Shown one piece after another: positions 1 to 39,962 of a stretch of 39,962 nt of DNA. How positions within the stretch are numbered: the stretch's first letter is position 1; every line of letters starts with the position of its first letter. Origin of the DNA: a virus; the IMG/VR virus record IMGVR_UViG_3300037264_003948, positions 1 through 39,962 of that record, one strand, 5' to 3'. The notes beneath the pieces were generated by a model. It did no database searches and was not told the DNA's origin. It saw only the letters and a program-made list of their open reading frames with translations. The translations under genes were made by a program, and so were the position numbers.

Positions 1-150
1 ATCTACCATGAAGGAGCCTAGGGAAGCACATTCACGAAGGAACCTAATGTATAATAAGGAACCTAATGTATAATAAGGAACCTAATGTATAATAAGGAAC
101 CTAATGTATAATAAGGAGCCTAATGTATAATATCTACCAAATAAGTCAAA
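1..150. repeat. Terminal direct repeat, left copy
   Basis: Positions 1-150 match 39813-39962 base for base except at one site (A at 42, G at 39854). The right copy is continuous with unique sequence to its left and the left copy with the first gene to its right. The simplest reading is a circular or circularly permuted genome whose contig ends overlap, giving a unique length of 39812 bp. Genuine direct terminal repeats are the alternative. The single mismatch means the two copies are not just one k-mer written twice. Confidence 0.9.
37..131 (+). repeat. Five 19-bp tandem repeats, each with SD, ATG and TATAAT
   Basis: Five head-to-tail units of AAGGAACCTAATGTATAAT start at 37, 56, 75, 94 and 113; the last has AAGGAG. 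Each unit holds a Shine-Dalgarno core, an ATG four or five bases later (47, 66, 85, 104, 123) and a perfect -10 hexamer TATAAT. The fifth ATG is the start of the first gene. The other four open an 8-codon reading frame (MYNKEPNV) that stops a few bases after the next ATG. The array therefore duplicates the translation start region of the gene. It could equally be iterons for a DNA-binding protein. Confidence 0.9.
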
Positions 151-7199: not shown

Positions 7200-9275
7200 A
7201 TGCCATTGTTTCCTCATATTAATGAGAATAATTTAGATGAAAAAGATCGTAATGTTATCTCACGGATGAGGCAGTTTTATACGCAATCAATGGGTATAAA
7301 TCTTGGTCTATGGGGTGAGATGGATCTTGACACTAGGTTCTACGCAGGCGATCAAAGAATGTGGGCTGGGCTTTATGGCAATGCCTTTATGGGTAATCGT
7401 CGCCAGTTCAATTTTAACCATATACGTCGCGTTGTTAACATGATCTCTGGCCATCAACGCCGCAATCGCAAATCGACTATTGTTGTTCCCATTGAGAATG
7501 CAGACAATGAGACGGCAGACCAGTTCTCAAAAGTCCTTATGTGGGCAAACAATCAAGAAAGTGTCCTTGAAACAATATCCGAGTCATTTGAAAATGCTCT
7601 TATCACGGGTATGAGCTTTTTGCACGTATGGCTTGATTATCGTACTGATCCAACTTCAGGCAATATAAAAGTAGACAACTGTTCATATAACTCTTTTGTA
7701 GTTGATCCCTACTTTAGAAAGCCTGATCTTTCGGATTGTAATGGGTTTTGGAAACGTTCTTATCTCACTAAAGCCGAGTGCGTTTCCTTATTCCCAAATA
7801 ATGCTGATGAAATTCTTGGCCTTTCTGCTAGTAACGGCCGCGATGGCAAATTCCAGTTCACTCCTGAAGCAACTTTGTACAATGAACAAACGATGCTTAC
7901 CTATGACCAGTTCTACTATCGCGCCTTCAGAACGCAAAAGATAATTATCGACTCTCAAACAGGCGAAAGCATGGAATGGAAGGGCTCAAAAGAAGATCTT
8001 GATCGATATATGACAGTTTGGCCTTCTATTGTTGCTGTTGAGTCACAAATCCCTACGGTCAAACAGGCCATTGTGGTCCAGGGCAAGGTCTTTTACGATG
8101 GCCCCCATACATTAGGTGACCAATATCCCTTTGTGCCTGTTTTTGCCTATTATACGCCTCAATTACCAGATGTTGTTTACCGTATTCAGGGTGTCGTTCG
8201 TGGGTTAAGAGACTCACAGTTTCTCTATAACCGTCGTAAGCTTATTGAACTGGACATGCTTGAGTCACAAGTCACATCTGGCTGGGTATATAAAGAAGAT
8301 TCACTGATTGATCCTAAAGCTGTATTTAATTCTGGCCAAGGGCGTGGGATTGCACTTAAACATGATGCACAGATGACTGACATCCAACAAATTCCATCAC
8401 CACGCATTGATGGTTCGCTTATGCAACTTTCTGAATCTCTCTCTAATGAAATACAAAGCATCTCTGGTGTATCAGAAGAATTACTCGGTAGTGCTCAAGA
8501 CGATAAGGCTGGCATATTATCCATGCTTCGTCAGTCGGCAGGTCTAACTACCCTTCAAGGCCTTTTCGATCAACTAGATCGATCACAGAAGTTACTTGGT
8601 AAGCTTATGATGAATATTATCCAGGCTAACTTTATGCCCGGTAAGATTAAACGTATTCTTGAGGGTGAGGAACCTACTCCTCAATTTTATAATAAAGCTT
8701 TTGGCAAGTATGACGCTAATGTCGAAGAAGGACTGAACACAACTTCTCAGAAACAAATGCAGTTCGCTCAGCTGATGCAATTGAAGGAAATTGGCGTAAA
8801 CATTCCTGATAAGACTCTTGTTGAAGCATGTACTGTACAGAACAAGAAGCGTCTTATGGAAGACATCGAACAAGCCCAACAACAACAACAACAGATGCAA
8901 CAAATGCAATTGCAAGCTGCTATCCAAGAACAACAAGCTCGTACAGAGTTGGCTCAAGCACGCACTATTGCTGATCAAGGTCTTGGTGTTGAGCGTATGA
9001 GTCGTGTTGAAGAAAACAAAGCACTTGCTATTGAACGTAGAGCTGCTGCTGTCAGAGATGAAGAAACAGGGTTCTTGGCTCTTGTTAAAGGTATTAAAGA
9101 GCTTGAGGGTATGGATACTGCTGAGTTAGCAACGCTTATACAACTCCATCACCAAATATCTCAAACAAATTCCCAACCAAACCCCACAAATTCCCAACCA
9201 ATCCCCACAAATTCCCAAACAGTTCCTAAAAATTCCCAAACAGTTCCCAAAAAGAAGGTATCTAAGAGTAAATGA
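7200..9275 (+). CDS. Portal protein, P22-like
   Basis: 691 aa, the length of P22-type portals. The N-terminal part has typical features: a FYAGDQ segment, FNHIRRVVNMISGHQRRNRK, then QFSKVLMWANN and FENALITGMSFLHVWLDYR, with NSFVVDPYF later. The portal dodecamer sits at one capsid vertex, nucleates assembly, docks terminase and later the tail. Residues about 555-600 form a Gln-rich coiled coil (EQAQQQQQQMQQMQLQ), comparable to the helical barrel of P22. The extreme C-terminus carries four short NSQxxPx repeats and ends KKKVSKSK. ATG follows AAAGGA; the stop overlaps the endolysin start (ATGA). Confidence 0.9.
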   Translation: MPLFPHINENNLDEKDRNVISRMRQFYTQSMGINLGLWGEMDLDTRFYAGDQRMWAGLYGNAFMGNRRQFNFNHIRRVVNMISGHQRRNRKSTIVVPIENADNETADQFSKVLMWANNQESVLETISESFENALITGMSFLHVWLDYRTDPTSGNIKVDNCSYNSFVVDPYFRKPDLSDCNGFWKRSYLTKAECVSLFPNNADEILGLSASNGRDGKFQFTPEATLYNEQTMLTYDQFYYRAFRTQKIIIDSQTGESMEWKGSKEDLDRYMTVWPSIVAVESQIPTVKQAIVVQGKVFYDGPHTLGDQYPFVPVFAYYTPQLPDVVYRIQGVVRGLRDSQFLYNRRKLIELDMLESQVTSGWVYKEDSLIDPKAVFNSGQGRGIALKHDAQMTDIQQIPSPRIDGSLMQLSESLSNEIQSISGVSEELLGSAQDDKAGILSMLRQSAGLTTLQGLFDQLDRSQKLLGKLMMNIIQANFMPGKIKRILEGEEPTPQFYNKAFGKYDANVEEGLNTTSQKQMQFAQLMQLKEIGVNIPDKTLVEACTVQNKKRLMEDIEQAQQQQQQMQQMQLQAAIQEQQARTELAQARTIADQGLGVERMSRVEENKALAIERRAAAVRDEETGFLALVKGIKELEGMDTAELATLIQLHHQISQTNSQPNPTNSQPIPTNSQTVPKNSQTVPKKKVSKSK

Positions 9276-22016: not shown

Positions 22017-22096
22017 TGCAGGCCCAGGTAGGCCTATGCAGGCCCAGGTAGGCCTGTGCAGGCCCAGGTGGGCCTATGCAGGCCCAGGTAGGCCTA
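22017..22096. repeat. Four GC-rich 20-bp tandem repeats
   Basis: Units start at 22017, 22037, 22057 and 22077, consensus TGCAGGCCCAGGTAGGCCTA, with one change each in units 2 and 3. About two thirds G+C in an AT-rich genome. Each unit contains the dyad AGGCC-N6-GGCCT (a short hairpin). They lie between the leftward promoter and the first rightward fiber gene. Confidence 0.9.
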
Positions 22097-22127
22097 TGGT
22101 AAAATTTATTAATTCTTAGGAGAACTC

Positions 22128-29287: not shown

Positions 29288-32200
29288 ATGGCATCATCAG
29301 TAACGGGCACAGCACCTTTAGCGTATTTAGGCGTCCAGGCGGCTAATCCACCTAATATGGTCTTCTCAGATCATCTACCAACAGCAACTGACGTTCAATT
29401 TATTCCTGGAACACTGTGGTTATTTAAGAACCCACTTACAACCAATCCACCTCATGCATTGTATTCACTCGTATCAGTTTCATCAGTTACTGGGGCTACA
29501 TGGGTACCCCTTTATCCAGCTGGTGGGCCTGCTGGGTTTATGTTTATTCCAGATGCTGGTGTTATAGCAACGTTTAGTCCTACAACAGGATTAATACTTT
29601 TTGCTGGTGATACTAATATTACAACTAATGGCACTCCATTTGGCTTATCTGTAGAACTTAATCCAAGCATCAGCGTCGCAGGTTCTATTAAAGCTGGCAC
29701 AACACTTGAGTCAACAACAAGCATGACCGTTGGGACTACGCTCGGTGTAACAGGTACTACAACTCTTTTCTCTCTATCAGATGGAGTTGTATTTTCTGAC
29801 ATTGTTGGTGTTTTAAGCACGCCTACAAGTGCTGTGCCTGGAGCTAATCAAGCACCGTTGATTGTTGGTGATTCAGGAGATCAAACTGGTACATGGGGTT
29901 TACTAACAAGCACTGGCAATACGGTAGTTATTACACAACCAACTCCAACAACTATCAACCTTGAAGCTGGTGGTGGCGGTGGGGGTATAACCCAGCTTAA
30001 TGCTGACGCTGGCAGTGCAACAGGAGCAACAGTTACTATCGCTGGAGGAACTGGCCTTGCATCTACAGCAGCACTTGCCACATTGACATTAAACCTTGAT
30101 GTTCCAGTAACCATAGCCAATGGTGGAACTAATGCTGTTGCGATGACTAACACTAACGGCGTGGCATACTTTGATGGCACACGTATTGTCACCACTACAG
30201 TTGGCACTGCAACACACGTCCTAACATCCAATGGGGTTGGCGTAGCCCCCTCGTTTCAAGTTGTTCCAGCAGCAACTGTTACATCTGTTTTGGGAACGGC
30301 TGGTCAAATTACATCAACTGGTCCGGTTCTTGGTGTTATAACCCTTTCAACTCCGCTTGCATTTGTTGCTCCTGGGTCTATTGCATCAACGACGACTATC
30401 ACAGCAGCGTCAGGTCTTGGCGTAACGGCTGGTGGAGCAACGATAACGGCTGGTGGGCTTACTGTAACCGCTGGTAATGTTCTTGTCACAGCAGGAACCA
30501 CTACGCTTACTCCTCTTAATACATCAGGCATGGTATTAAATTCAGCCGCTGGTCTACTTTCTACAGCAGCAACCACTAATCATGCTATTCAAATTGGAAA
30601 CGCTGCAGGACAACTAACCTCATTGGGCATAGGTACTAATGGCCAAGTTCTATTAGGATCAACCGGAGCTAATCCAGCCTTTGTAACACCAACGGTAAAT
30701 ACCGGTCTTTCTCTTGTGACTAATGCCGCAACACTTCAGTATGGACTTACCATTCCAGTAGTTATTTCTTCTGGAGGGACTAATGCCACTACAATGACTA
30801 ACACATATGGTGTTAATTACTTTAACGGAACGAGCATCGTTACAACTACAGTTGGTGTAGCCAATCAAGTCCTAACATCCAATGGGGCTGGCGTAGCCCC
30901 CACGTTCCAGACCTCAACAGTTGGCATAGCAACGCTTACTGATGATGGAGCTGGATCAGCAACAGGGGTTTCAGTAAAAATAGCAGGGACTGTCAATCAG
31001 ATAACAACTGTAGGAGCTGCTGCAACGATGACGTTGTCATTACCAGTAGCTATTACAGCTCCAGGAAGTCTAACGACTACAACAAGTCTTACTGCCACCT
31101 TGGGGAACATAACCGCAACGGCTGGGGATATTGTAGTGGGTAACGTATCTGCTGGGACCACTGCTCCATTTGTTAACTTCTTAAAATCTCATGCTGCTGG
31201 AGGAATTACCAGTGGAGACGTATTAGGCGAAGCTACCTTTAGGGGTCATGATTCAACCCAGTACGTTATTGGTTCTAAGATTACATCAACTAGCTCAGGC
31301 ATGGTTGCTGTTAATCGCATAGCGTCTGATCTTAAATTTTATACACATCCAGATTCAGTTGTTGCTACAACGCTTCGGATGACCATTGCTGATACTGGTG
31401 CTATTACCATAGCAGCACCTGATTCGGGTGTTGCGCTTACTATTACGGCTGGTGGGCTTACAGTTACTGCTGGCGGAGCAACTATTACGGCTGGTGGCCT
31501 TACTGTGACAGCTGGTGGAATAGGAGCTACTGTTGGAAATATTACAGCAACGTTAGGTGATGTTGTTGCAACAGCAGGAAATCTTGTTACCACAACTGGC
31601 GACGCACTTATAGGCAACACCGCAGTTGCTGTTACACAGCCTATTTTAGACTTTAAGAAATCTCGTGCTGGTGGTGTTATTACTAGTGGTGACTTGCTCG
31701 GTCAGATACTCTTTAGAGGTATTGGCACAGGCACAACGTATACAGCCGGAGCGTCTATTACATCAACAAGCTCTGGAGCTATCGCAGCTACACAAGTAGC
31801 AGGAAACCTTGTATTCGCAACCCACCCTAATAGTGCTACCACTGATGCTGCTACAACGCGTATGACGATTGCTTCTACAGGGGCTATCACTATTGCTGCT
31901 CCAGATAGCGGCGTAGCACTTACAATTACGGCTGGTGGACTAACAGTCACCGCAGGGAATGTTACAGTAACATCTGGTAATCTAGCGCTACCAACAACAT
32001 CGCCTACAGTTGGACAAATCACTATTAATGGCACTCCTGTATTGCATACGTATAGTGGTGGAAATTCTACCTTTATTGGTGACGCTGGAAACTTTACAAA
32101 CACTGGAATAAAAAATATTGGCTTTGGAAACAATGCTTTAAATAGTATGACATCTGGAGATTCTAATATCGGGATAGGGTTTGAGGCCGGAACTGCAGTA

Positions 32201-36713: not shown

Positions 36714-37478
36714 TTATAAAGTTGGTTTCTTCAGTCCATTCCGAGCTAGGGTTATGTTTCTAACCTTTTCGATAGCTATTCTGTACTTGGATCGTGGGAT
36801 GTCATGCAGGCTTTGTATCTTAAGTGTCTTCATGAGATCTTCACCGATGTCCGGGTATTGTCCTAGTTCGTATTTAAGCTCTTCAAACTCATGGTCATTA
36901 ATGGTCTGAGCTGATTCTTCTCTGGGATCGTACTTGGCATTAAGGGCCGTTCCAGCAACAAACTGCTTTCTGGATTCCAGCGTGCTAATTTGAGCATCAT
37001 CATCGCAGCTATCATCAGAAATAGTGATACCCAACAAGGCCATAGCCTGATGGCGTTTTTTGTACATGAGCGTACTGGCATATGTCGCATCGTCATTCTT
37101 TTCTGGAATTATCTTTTCTCTTGTTTCAAACCATTGGCCACTAGAATGCCTAAGGCGCGTATGTAGAACCCTTCCCCCTTCACTGCTATCTATCCTGGTG
37201 AATTGTGATAGCCCAAGGCTATTTTTAGATAGTGCGGGACGTATGGCAGTCATGATGGTATGGAACTCTGCGAACTCAGACTGTTCCCACTTGTTAGTCT
37301 TGGTTGGTTTTATGACTGGAAACTCGCCTTGAGCAACAGCAAAGGCAGCGTCTATTTCATTAGTATCTTCACTCTGATAAGCGTCTGGAGCTTTTTGTTC
37401 TGTGAGTCTAATACTTACTTCACGTGCTATGTGATCATTATACTCATCAAGCAACTCCAGGAGGTCCTTAGTCTCCAT
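36714..37478 (-). CDS. erf: Erf-type single-strand annealing protein, larger copy
   Basis: 254 aa after AAAAAGGAGAAAAGG. The ERF core spans about 65-170: EFAEFHTIMTAIRPALSKNS, LHTRLRHSSGQWFE, then DDATYASTLMYKKRHQAMALLGI and the acidic SDDSCDDDAQ. ERF proteins form rings on single-stranded DNA and anneal complementary strands; in P22 this drives circularisation. The N-terminal 45 residues are acidic and the C-terminal 60 share a pattern (YPDIGEDLMKTLKIQSLHDI) with the other Erf-like protein at 38692. Two such proteins in one phage are unusual. Confidence 0.88.
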   Translation of the reverse strand: METKDLLELLDEYNDHIAREVSIRLTEQKAPDAYQSEDTNEIDAAFAVAQGEFPVIKPTKTNKWEQSEFAEFHTIMTAIRPALSKNSLGLSQFTRIDSSEGGRVLHTRLRHSSGQWFETREKIIPEKNDDATYASTLMYKKRHQAMALLGITISDDSCDDDAQISTLESRKQFVAGTALNAKYDPREESAQTINDHEFEELKYELGQYPDIGEDLMKTLKIQSLHDIPRSKYRIAIEKVRNITLARNGLKKPTL

Positions 37479-37566: not shown

Positions 37567-37762
37567 TAACAGTTTGCCCTAAATCTTGTAACAGTTTGCC
37601 CGGAATCTTGTAACAGTTTGCCCGGAATCTTGTAACACTTTCCCCGGAATCTTGTAACACTTTTCCGGAATTTTTCCGGAATCTTGTAACACTTTTCCGG
37701 AATTTTTCCGGGAATCTTGCGACACTTTTCCGGGAATCTTGTAACACTTTTCCGGGAACCTG
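37567..37762. repeat. Iteron-like array of eight repeats, mostly 22 bp
   Basis: Units begin TAACAGTTTG or TAACACTTTT at 37567, 37589, 37611, 37633, 37655, 37687, 37720 and 37742. Six are 21-22 bp; the two at 37655 and 37687 are 32-33 bp with a doubled TTTTCCGGAA. Each has CCGGAATCTTG at its end. A 22-bp period equals two helical turns, the geometry of plasmid and phage iterons. All three leftward frames happen to be open, but no ribosome site exists and the repeat is not a multiple of three. The whole 37479-37819 stretch has no credible gene; the array fills most of it. Confidence 0.85.
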
Positions 37763-38282: not shown

Positions 38283-38695
38283 TACTTTCCCTCTGTTGGT
38301 TCTTTTAAAAGATCTTCAATATTTCCAAGATCCATCCAGTAGTCTAATTCCCCCAACCCAAAAGTGGTTTCTTTTCTACCATGGAAATCATCAGATAATA
38401 TACTTAAATCATCTAAGGAGAACCGTTTTGTTTTAGTAAATAGAGCCTCCTGTGTTTTGTGAAAAGAATTATCACATTCTAAACGACGAACTAATATTCT
38501 AACTTTATCGTGGAACAGTTCTCTATCCCACGCCTCCCAATAACCTATCGCATCTATGAGTATAAAATGAATGGCAAGTTCGCACTCACCATCAGGACAT
38601 TGTAATTCATCTTTTAATAGAAATCGCTTAGTTCCTTTAAGTGCTACTGGTGAAAATCTTCCAGGCATAGAATCAAAACATTTTTCCCAGCTCAT
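38282..38695 (-). CDS. Hypothetical protein between Erf genes
   Basis: 137 aa, coupled by ATGA to the smaller Erf-like gene and by TAATG to the gene after. Mixed, fairly acidic sequence with Trp and Cys: MSWEKCFDSMPGRFSPVALK, then QCPDGECELAIHFILIDAIG, YWEAWDREL and FGLGELDYWMDLG. Two Cys in CPDGEC may bind a metal. No family recognised. Confidence 0.7.
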   Translation of the reverse strand: MSWEKCFDSMPGRFSPVALKGTKRFLLKDELQCPDGECELAIHFILIDAIGYWEAWDRELFHDKVRILVRRLECDNSFHKTQEALFTKTKRFSLDDLSILSDDFHGRKETTFGLGELDYWMDLGNIEDLLKEPTEGK

Positions 38696-39240
38696 TTTGG
38701 AGCTTTCTTTACGACATCTATTTTATCAACCACTTCTTTATACATGGACTTATCTAAATGTTCTATCTTTTGGATATTATAAGCATTAAGGAGCCTTGTG
38801 CGGATATCAGCGTATCCAGTCAGTTGCTGTTCGATGTACTTTGCTTGGTCAAGGGTAATGAGCTCTTCAGCTCCATCGTTGTCAGTAGGTTCTTTGCTTG
38901 GGTTAACGCCCAAAAGAGCGTTAGTAGCTTGTCTTTTTGCATAGCTAAGAGCACTACCAAAAGAAGCTGCTTTATTGTCTTGAGTCTCTAGCATTATCTT
39001 ACAGACCCTTTCTCCACCATTAACATGTGCTACTGTTGACTTAAGCCACTTTATTTTAGTTTCTTTGCAGAAATCAGGCTCATGGCTTATATCAAGCCCA
39101 TATTTTGTAAGTATTGGCTGTATGGCGTCCATTATATTCTCTAGGTCAGCATAAGAGCCATAGTTAGCCTGCCTATTGCAGTCTATTTGTGGGTATTCAG
39201 CCTTAGCTTTACTAAGGGCAAGTGTTAATTCTTTCATCAT
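38692..39240 (-). CDS. erf: Erf-type single-strand annealing protein, smaller copy
   Basis: 182 aa from the ATG at 39240, five bases after AAGGA; an in-frame ATG at 39255 overlaps the preceding gene and lacks a site. The ERF core is clearer than in the larger copy: NYGSYADLENIMDAIQPILT, then KYGLDISHEP, VAHVNGGERVCKIMLET, KAASFGSALSYAKRQATNAL and LGVNPSKEPTDNDG. The C-terminal segment (TGYADIRTRLLNAYNIQKIE) matches that of the other Erf. Probably the main annealase, acting with the RusA resolvase. Confidence 0.9.
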   Translation of the reverse strand: MMKELTLALSKAKAEYPQIDCNRQANYGSYADLENIMDAIQPILTKYGLDISHEPDFCKETKIKWLKSTVAHVNGGERVCKIMLETQDNKAASFGSALSYAKRQATNALLGVNPSKEPTDNDGAEELITLDQAKYIEQQLTGYADIRTRLLNAYNIQKIEHLDKSMYKEVVDKIDVVKKAPK

Positions 39241-39241
39241 A

Positions 39242-39433
39242 TTAATCCTTATCATTGTATTGATAGATAATTAGAATAGAAGCATCTACACAATCGGTGT
39301 ACGTTTCACAAAATTTGATATCAATAAGCTTGAAAAGATCTAACCTCTCTAATTCTTTAAGTCTTTTATTGATTATGTTATCAACAAAATTATCTACATT
39401 TACCCTTATATATAATGTTCGTACGACTATCAT
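39242..39433 (-). CDS. First small gene of the leftward operon
   Basis: 63 aa after AAGGGCC, about 45 bases downstream of the predicted start of the leftward transcript. Sequence MIVVRTLYIRVNVDNFVDNI, then KRLKELERLDLFKLIDIKFC and ILIIYQYNDKD. It looks like a small alternating strand/helix fold. No family recognised. It ends two bases before the Erf gene's ATG. Confidence 0.6.
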   Translation of the reverse strand: MIVVRTLYIRVNVDNFVDNIINKRLKELERLDLFKLIDIKFCETYTDCVDASILIIYQYNDKD

Positions 39434-39610: not shown

Positions 39611-39615
39611 GGCCA

Positions 39616-39642
39616 AAGCCCCGGGTTTTACCCCCAGGGCTT
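39616..39642 (+). other. Hairpin at the predicted 5' end of the early mRNA
   Basis: AAGCCC (39616-39621) pairs with GGGCTT (39637-39642), and inside it GGGT (39623-39626) pairs with ACCC (39630-39633). It begins within a base of the predicted start from the promoter at 39583. 5'-terminal stems of this kind often protect mRNA from decay. No T-run follows, so not a terminator. Confidence 0.5.
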
Positions 39643-39743
39643 GAAAGCCTTATATCTTTACCATTTGTAATTCTGCATACAGTTTAGACGACCAAGACAG
39701 AGATTACAAATTAACCAAACAATGCGCCACTGAAAGGAAGCAC

Positions 39744-39794
39744 ATGTATGAAGTAAGCACATTCACGAAGGAGCCTAATGAAGCACATTCATGA
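39744..39794 (+). CDS. Possible 16-residue leader peptide
   Basis: GAAAGGA stands five or six bases before an ATG that opens MYEVSTFTKEPNEAHS and a stop. It lies in the leader of the early operon and overlaps the degenerate part of the start-codon array. Translation of it could set ribosome traffic on the leader. Too short to prove. Confidence 0.3.
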   Translation: MYEVSTFTKEPNEAHS

Positions 39795-39848
39795 AGGAGC
39801 CGAATGTATAATATCTACCATGAAGGAGCCTAGGGAAGCACATTCACG
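39754..39848 (+). repeat. Degenerate, longer repeats upstream of the 19-bp array
   Basis: AAGCACATTCACGAAGGAGC recurs at 39757, at 39781 (one change, ATGAAGG) and at 39835, each followed by a start codon region (CTAATG, CGAATGTATAATATCTACC, CTAATG). The second copy even repeats the first codons of the gene at 123 (MYNIY) before a stop. So the array is built from several rounds of duplication of the gene's start. It joins the right copy of the 19-bp repeats at 39849. Confidence 0.75.
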
Positions 39849-39962
39849 AAGGAGCCTAATGTATAATAAGGAACCTAATGTATAATAAGGAACCTAATGT
39901 ATAATAAGGAACCTAATGTATAATAAGGAGCCTAATGTATAATATCTACCAAATAAGTCAAA
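39813..39962. repeat. Terminal direct repeat, right copy
   Basis: Matches 1-150 with one difference at 39854. It contains the second copy of the five 19-bp units (39849-39943) and ends inside the first codons of the gene at 123, which is cut off here. On a circular map it is the same locus as 1-150. Confidence 0.9.

Follow-up and report, generated by a model that had tools for sequence, protein, structure and literature searches.

The probable replication initiator gene of the phage behind IMG/VR record IMGVR_UViG_3300037264_003948 (the window, that is, the whole stretch of 39,962 nucleotides analyzed here) is preceded by a ladder of tandem 19-bp units, each bearing a ribosome-binding site and a start codon of its own, and we favor the reading that translation of the initiator starts within this ladder, which would form a chain of overlapping, coupled mini-cistrons. 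Stop-over-start arrangements, together with signs of an opposing RNA, recur in unrelated sequence in related phages, which suggests, at the level of sequence, a plasmid-like metering of replication.

The ladder (Table 1) agrees with the preliminary description of this DNA, made from the letters alone: all five units contain AAGGA, ATG and TATAAT (TRF, 98% matches). The units run from 37 to 55, 56 to 74, 75 to 93, 94 to 112 and 113 to 131, and in each the ATG follows the first base of the SD-like AAGGA by nine bases. As likewise described, the four upstream ATGs (47, 66, 85 and 104) open 8-codon frames reading MYNKEPNV, each TAA lies beside the next start, 5–7 nt past the A of the following ATG, and the ATG of the last unit, at 123, is the real start, opening the 204-aa ORF. 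The 13-mer AAGGARCCTAATG, with up to two mismatches allowed, occurs 17 times against 2.2 expected and nearly always within the array; no further copies of the 19-bp unit were found elsewhere in the window. AAGGAGCC begins the last ladder unit and, at the right end of the contig, the first unit.

Since positions 1–150 equal positions 39813–39962 bar one base, the ends of the record join into a circle of about 39,812 bp, and through this closure the copies at 39734–39812 come to lie directly upstream of base 1 and form one array with the ladder. The degenerate copies to which the preliminary description had ascribed the same logic are thus present, and in the same array, but TATAAT is found in only one of them (39807). 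What appeared to be a second array at 39849–39944 was rejected, this being the ladder seen twice through the terminal overlap. The mismatch between the two ends (42 A, 39854 G) falls inside the array and may be a real variant, with two haplotypes, or an assembly seam; the ladder repeat number, as read from a short-read metagenome contig, is to be held loosely. In total the array covers about 210 bp, with degenerate units in which AAGCACATTCAYG and AAGGAGCCTAATG alternate, followed by the five clean units. The degenerate unit AATGTATAATATCTACCA (39803–39820) is a copy of the gene start at 122–139, comprising the first five codons, and the array as a whole reads as a nested tandem duplication of the start region of the gene itself.

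Table 1. Coordinates of the ladder, the initiator and the leader signals in the window, and leader frames compared in homologous relatives.
Feature	Position	Strand	Remarks
Degenerate units ATGAAGGAGCCTAGGG, AAGCACATTCACG	1..36	+	link between ladder and the 39734-39812 copies
Five tandem 19-bp units AAGGAACCTAATGTATAAT	37..131	+	TRF score 185, 5.1 copies, 98% matches
Mini-frame 1, MYNKEPNV*	47..73	+	TAA 71-73 over next ATG
Mini-frame 2	66..92	+	TAA 90-92
Mini-frame 3	85..111	+	TAA 109-111
Mini-frame 4	104..130	+	TAA 128-130 overlaps initiator start ATG 123
Putative weak antisense promoter	122..149	-	-35 TTGACT 149-144, 16 nt, -10 TACATT 127-122
Probable initiator, N-terminal half, 204 aa, winged helix	123..737	+	clade profile positions 48-132, E 9.5e-10
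Probable initiator, C-terminal half, 195 aa	737..1324	+	clade profile positions 190-290, E 2.4e-12
GC-rich hairpin, weak candidate antisense RNA end	39612..39645	-	no proper T-run
Stem-loop ATTTGTAAT..ATTACAAAT, between hairpin and ladder	39662..39712	+	
Degenerate units AAGGAAGCACATGTATG, AAGCACATTCACG-AAGGAGCCTAATG, AAGCACATTCATG-AAGGAGCCGAATG	39734..39812	+	meet base 1 where the circle closes
Terminal overlap, repeats window 1-150	39813..39962	+	one mismatch, 39854 G / 42 A
Leader frames, L040/L041	-62/-53		homologues
Leader frames, L072/L092	-164/-170		homologues
Leader frames, L039/L050/L034	-82/-112/-118		homologues
Leader frames, L030/L063/L165	-116/-137/-137		homologues

The gene behind the ladder probably encodes a split winged-helix, O-like initiator, its role in replication being deduced from family and position. 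Both halves match the profile built for the clade (E-values for a database consisting of just this pair), and the stop of the 204-aa ORF overlaps the start of the 195-aa ORF as TAATG at 735–739. The initiator in most relatives is a single protein of about 250–600 aa; one relative, L032 (5252–6410), has it split into two ORFs independently. Twelve of 15 clade relatives match Pfam HTH_36 and 10 of 15 match replication-initiation PHROGs, the names matched being replication initiation protein, O-like initiator and DnaD-like loader. The 204-aa protein itself gave no direct Pfam or PHROG match. In its structure model, residues about 11–110 form a winged-helix core of high confidence, with MarR, a RepA-type N-domain and the DnaD N-domain as the best, though weak, PDB matches (E about 0.002–0.01), and this comparison of a model supports a winged helix only. 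The winged helix of the preliminary description is thereby retained, but we take its "phage protein" to be most probably the N-terminal half of an initiator and not a simple regulator. The array sits where two gene groups diverge, in the intergenic region that separates leftward genes, which include an ERF-type annealing protein (38692–39255, minus strand), from a rightward operon in which the 204-aa ORF, the 195-aa ORF, RusA, an HTH_3 protein, TerL and primase follow one another. Neither the DNA of the window nor the 204-aa protein brought up a close relative in searches of phages, plasmids, IMG/VR and genome contigs; a Piscirickettsia plasmid match to that protein (E 6e-3) was dropped as too weak. 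The window has no Rfam match and no tRNA.

Relatives were gathered from IMG/VR with a TerL profile, which gave 125 distinct loci after removal of duplicates, and one winged-helix initiator family is found in the same position at 65 of these. Leaders were scored for an ATG frame of at least seven codons with its stop at −4 to +8 of the initiator start, the null coming from dinucleotide shuffles of the leader that left start region and coding sequence untouched. Such a short upstream frame overlaps the initiator start at 30 of 46 loci against 11.4 expected (z 7.2), 19 of the 65 initiators having been left out for want of a clear start or flank; it is absent in the other 16 tested. The excess is seen when an SD is required (11 vs 2.2 expected) and in array-free loci (21/32 vs 8.2), with 34/160 vs 23.1 expected at other genes, and stops outside the overlap zone show no excess (+9 to +21, 0 vs 1.2). 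Counted by clusters, the overlap occurs in 23 of 59, untestable clusters being among the 59, and in most array-bearing leaders one frame ends just past the initiator start. Homologous leaders that differ in length by multiples of three keep both frame and overlap (Table 1), and the L046 and L047 leaders keep the overlap through compensating changes. Substitutions in homologous leaders are spread equally over codon positions 1, 2 and 3, so that by codon position there is no conservation of the leader peptide; a frame that is kept while its peptide is not agrees with, but does not prove, a dispensable peptide, and points to coupling more than to a functional product. We consider it probable that initiator translation in these phages is coupled to leader-frame translation, and of the devices proposed in the preliminary description termination-reinitiation appears favored, because the stop-over-start relation recurs at the initiator of relatives in unrelated sequence. 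Folding of the leader RNA is marginally stronger in the clade than in controls (median z −1.3 vs −0.7, p 0.04), the window leader from −260 to −10 having a z of −0.9.

Among non-redundant loci, arrays reaching the start with a TRF score of at least 40 were found at 12 of 59 initiators vs 19 of 751 other genes with an upstream gap of at least 100 nt (p 3.5e-7). The enrichment persists when the thresholds are changed and was also seen in an earlier, independent selection of the data. Among the strongest arrays at the "other" genes are those of L100 (33 nt ×2, 100%) and L094 (42 nt ×3), and the genes behind them occupy the initiator position and have a divergent winged-helix-like sequence that the profile missed; the two loci were added by hand to later sets, in which array counts are slightly favored, the 12/59 vs 19/751 comparison being unaffected. 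The 16 array-bearing loci, the window included, all fall in different 40%-identity clusters, and between relatives the array units are unrelated in sequence, with periods from 6 to 59 nt. An SD, often with a start, is repeated in the arrays of many relatives (L022, L026, L042, L076, L100, L040 and L028), and in L022, L026, L042, L076 and L100 this amounts to similar SD-plus-start ladders in unrelated sequence. Thus, L022 has 59-nt units with ATG/GTG/GTG and then AAATTTACT, L026 has units with ATG/GTG/ATG/ATG AAAACCTCTAA and L042 has a 37-nt unit twice (100%); the L040 array is a 12-nt SD duplication, and the arrays of L011, L064, L012 and L191 are without an SD-plus-start ladder. L026 also carries a second array at 1–100 (30 nt × 3.3 identical units with in-frame TTG starts), kin to its start ladder, which lies about 260–356 nt before the initiator and is truncated by the contig end.

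The initiator start is also marked by signals on the opposite strand. Leftward intrinsic terminators lie between −400 and +60 of the initiator at 24 of 58 loci vs 19 of 502 other rightward genes, with 0.4 expected by shuffling and four in the sense direction; because the leftward operon starts further left, these terminators must end something that comes from the initiator side. They are found in 24 initiator leaders, for example those of L042, L060, L094, L100 and L064. Antisense promoters (at least 10/12 consensus matches, −150 to +90) accompany 15 of 58 initiators vs 27 of 502 genes elsewhere and 3.4 expected, and in the clade their predicted starts fall mostly at −12 to +47, with TTGAC and TATTAT-like boxes. 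The antisense −35 (GTCAA) lies mostly in frame on a conserved xQ residue, and part of the promoter signal may thus be protein-driven. Promoter and terminator calls were consensus-based, start codons were chosen by rule and many of the contigs are fragments. In the window itself the putative antisense promoter matches at 9/12, with a predicted start near 115 and a −10 that spans ATG 123; at the same place many relatives have stronger ones (10–11/12), and L042, L076 and L060 carry stronger antisense signals than the window. The hairpin at the candidate RNA end folds, within 71 nt, at −29.2 kcal/mol (z −3.9), and relatives have true leftward terminators there. Taken together, these predicted signals make a counter-transcript at the initiator likely for the clade, and the weak signals in the window suggest one in this phage too.

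The arrangement that we propose would work as follows. The clade norm would be one short leader frame with its stop over the initiator start, the two being coupled by termination-reinitiation. In the window phage the start region (SD, ATG and first codons) would have been duplicated several times to give a series of 8-codon frames; a ribosome would load on the leader start, read the mini-frame through to a stop that lies over the next start and initiate again there, with up to four or more identical reinitiation steps chained before the initiator is reached. Such chaining could raise ribosome capture, smooth initiator output or, if reinitiation is imperfect, dilute output stepwise. In much of the clade, a counter-transcript from the 5′ end of the initiator would run back over the leader to the intrinsic terminator and lower translation of the leader, and hence of the initiator, by pairing or by colliding transcription; accumulating with genome copies, it would shut off initiator synthesis. 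That the number of ladder units matters is doubtful, a minority expectation at best. Still more speculative, and in our opinion rather unlikely, is the thought that, with the initiator under antisense control, the hypervariable, duplicated leader would supply both specificity and gain: mini-cistron number would set output and leader sequence would decide which phages shut one another down by counter-transcript, a plasmid-type incompatibility between co-infecting phages.

The main rival of the coupled-ladder reading is neutral or nearly neutral slippage: the leader would be hypervariable, duplications that keep the 3′ SD plus ATG would be tolerated and the ladder would have no role of its own. 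Units that differ completely between relatives, leaders that are hypervariable between homologous phages and the nested copies of the gene's own start (39803–39820 copying 122–139) are all as slippage would give. Against it, arrays are about eight times rarer at other starts with equally long upstream gaps in the same genomes, the clade shows more stop-over-next-start frames than chance would give, in array-free loci as well, and upstream SD and start codons are largely retained in units that have diverged (L022, L026); we regard slippage alone as an unlikely, if serious, account. Copy-number variation, which the preliminary description had offered as a way of tuning the gene, is plausible to the extent that relatives' arrays differ completely and a single base within the array distinguishes the two contig ends, but a difference in repeat number between near-identical genomes was not seen. 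The same description had named initiator-binding iterons, and 19-bp direct, near-identical repeats beside a winged-helix initiator gene do resemble those of iteron plasmids; they would bind the initiator, forming the origin, autoregulating the gene or both. Unit sequence and period are, however, unrelated between homologous initiators, most relatives are array-free, neither lambda-like repeats inside the initiator gene nor further unit copies in the window were found, and most arrays are alike in carrying SD plus start rather than in any sequence motif. As a general explanation iterons are therefore unsupported, and for this phage we hold them improbable. Finally, a transcriptional device with the TATAAT boxes as tandem or decoy −10 elements is most improbable: TATAAT does occur exactly once per ladder unit, but it encodes codons 2–3 of the gene, the TG stands a base nearer than an extended −10 requires, no sense promoter with a fitting −35 (at least 9/12) is present in the leader and TATAAT is missing from the units of most relatives, which leaves the decoy boxes of the preliminary description unsupported.

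For plasmids, leader-frame coupling combined with antisense control of the initiator is textbook knowledge. In plasmid R1, translation of tap is needed for that of RepA and is blocked by the antisense RNA CopA (PMC5883639), and the REx-C modules of Pseudomonas combine leader frame, antisense RNA and terminator, with the leader peptide free to vary (PMC5304414). The coupled-ladder reading shares with R1 (IncFII) tap-repA/CopA, ColIb-P9 repYZ and REx-C the short leader frame coupled to a replication initiator, and the R1-type frame with its stop over the initiator start is present in window and clade alike; possible further likenesses are a leader peptide whose sequence would be immaterial and a putative antisense RNA that would cover the leader and end at an upstream intrinsic terminator. 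It differs in that the carrier is a phage, the initiator is winged-helix and O-like, a whole tandem ladder stands in place of a single leader frame, the predicted antisense promoter of the clade sits at the initiator start and not ahead of the leader frame, and a CopT-like structure is not evident in the window. The promoter position resembles that of lambda pO/oop, where the pO −10 adjoins the O start codon (PMC3985674), but in lambda the upstream cistron is a full gene, cII, which lies within the oop target, whereas here it is a short overlapping frame, and the lambda origin iterons are inside O, whereas none were found inside the initiator gene of the window. The window ladder would work like R1, REx-C and lambda; its antisense RNA being putative, we do not class it as a member. 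At overlapping gene pairs (ATGA, TAATG), of which 13 out of 14 examined proved strictly coupled (PMC6728339), a stop likewise lies over the next start and an SD is present, but two proteins are coupled, whereas here a series of identical mini-frames leads up to a single gene. Start codons immediately preceded by tandem repeats are known from the TAACTGA repeats of Beggiatoaceae (PMC4679880) and the G-tract of Moraxella UspA1; those repeats are without SD or start and are one sequence genome-wide, whereas here the unit is itself a translation start and is phage-specific.

A limited literature search found no description of such ladders or of the clade's leader frame, and no published account of a phage group that seemingly combines an overlapping leader frame, a counter-transcript at the initiator start and recurrent ladders. 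If true, the arrangement offers a testable system for chained reinitiation, in which each added start-stop unit may raise, lower or buffer output, and for the metering of phage replication after infection, the ladder being a natural series for per-step reinitiation efficiency.

Some further features were noticed. Two ERF-family annealing proteins (PF04404) are encoded in this one small genome, at 36714–37478 and 38692–39255 (minus strand), and complex tandem repeats of 22 and 32 nt (TTTTCCGGAATCTTG-type) lie at 37567–37758, just right of one of the two genes. Other tandem arrays are found at 9165–9253 (21 bp × 4.2, end of the portal gene), at 22017–22098 (20 bp × 4.1, TGCAGGCCCAGGTAGGCCTA, just before ORF 22128) and at 31435–31519 (42 bp, in a large tail-region gene). 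The TerL of L011 (4443–6614) has an intein-like insertion (CFTGDTPILT...VHN) at the position that corresponds to the 405/406 junction of the window TerL.
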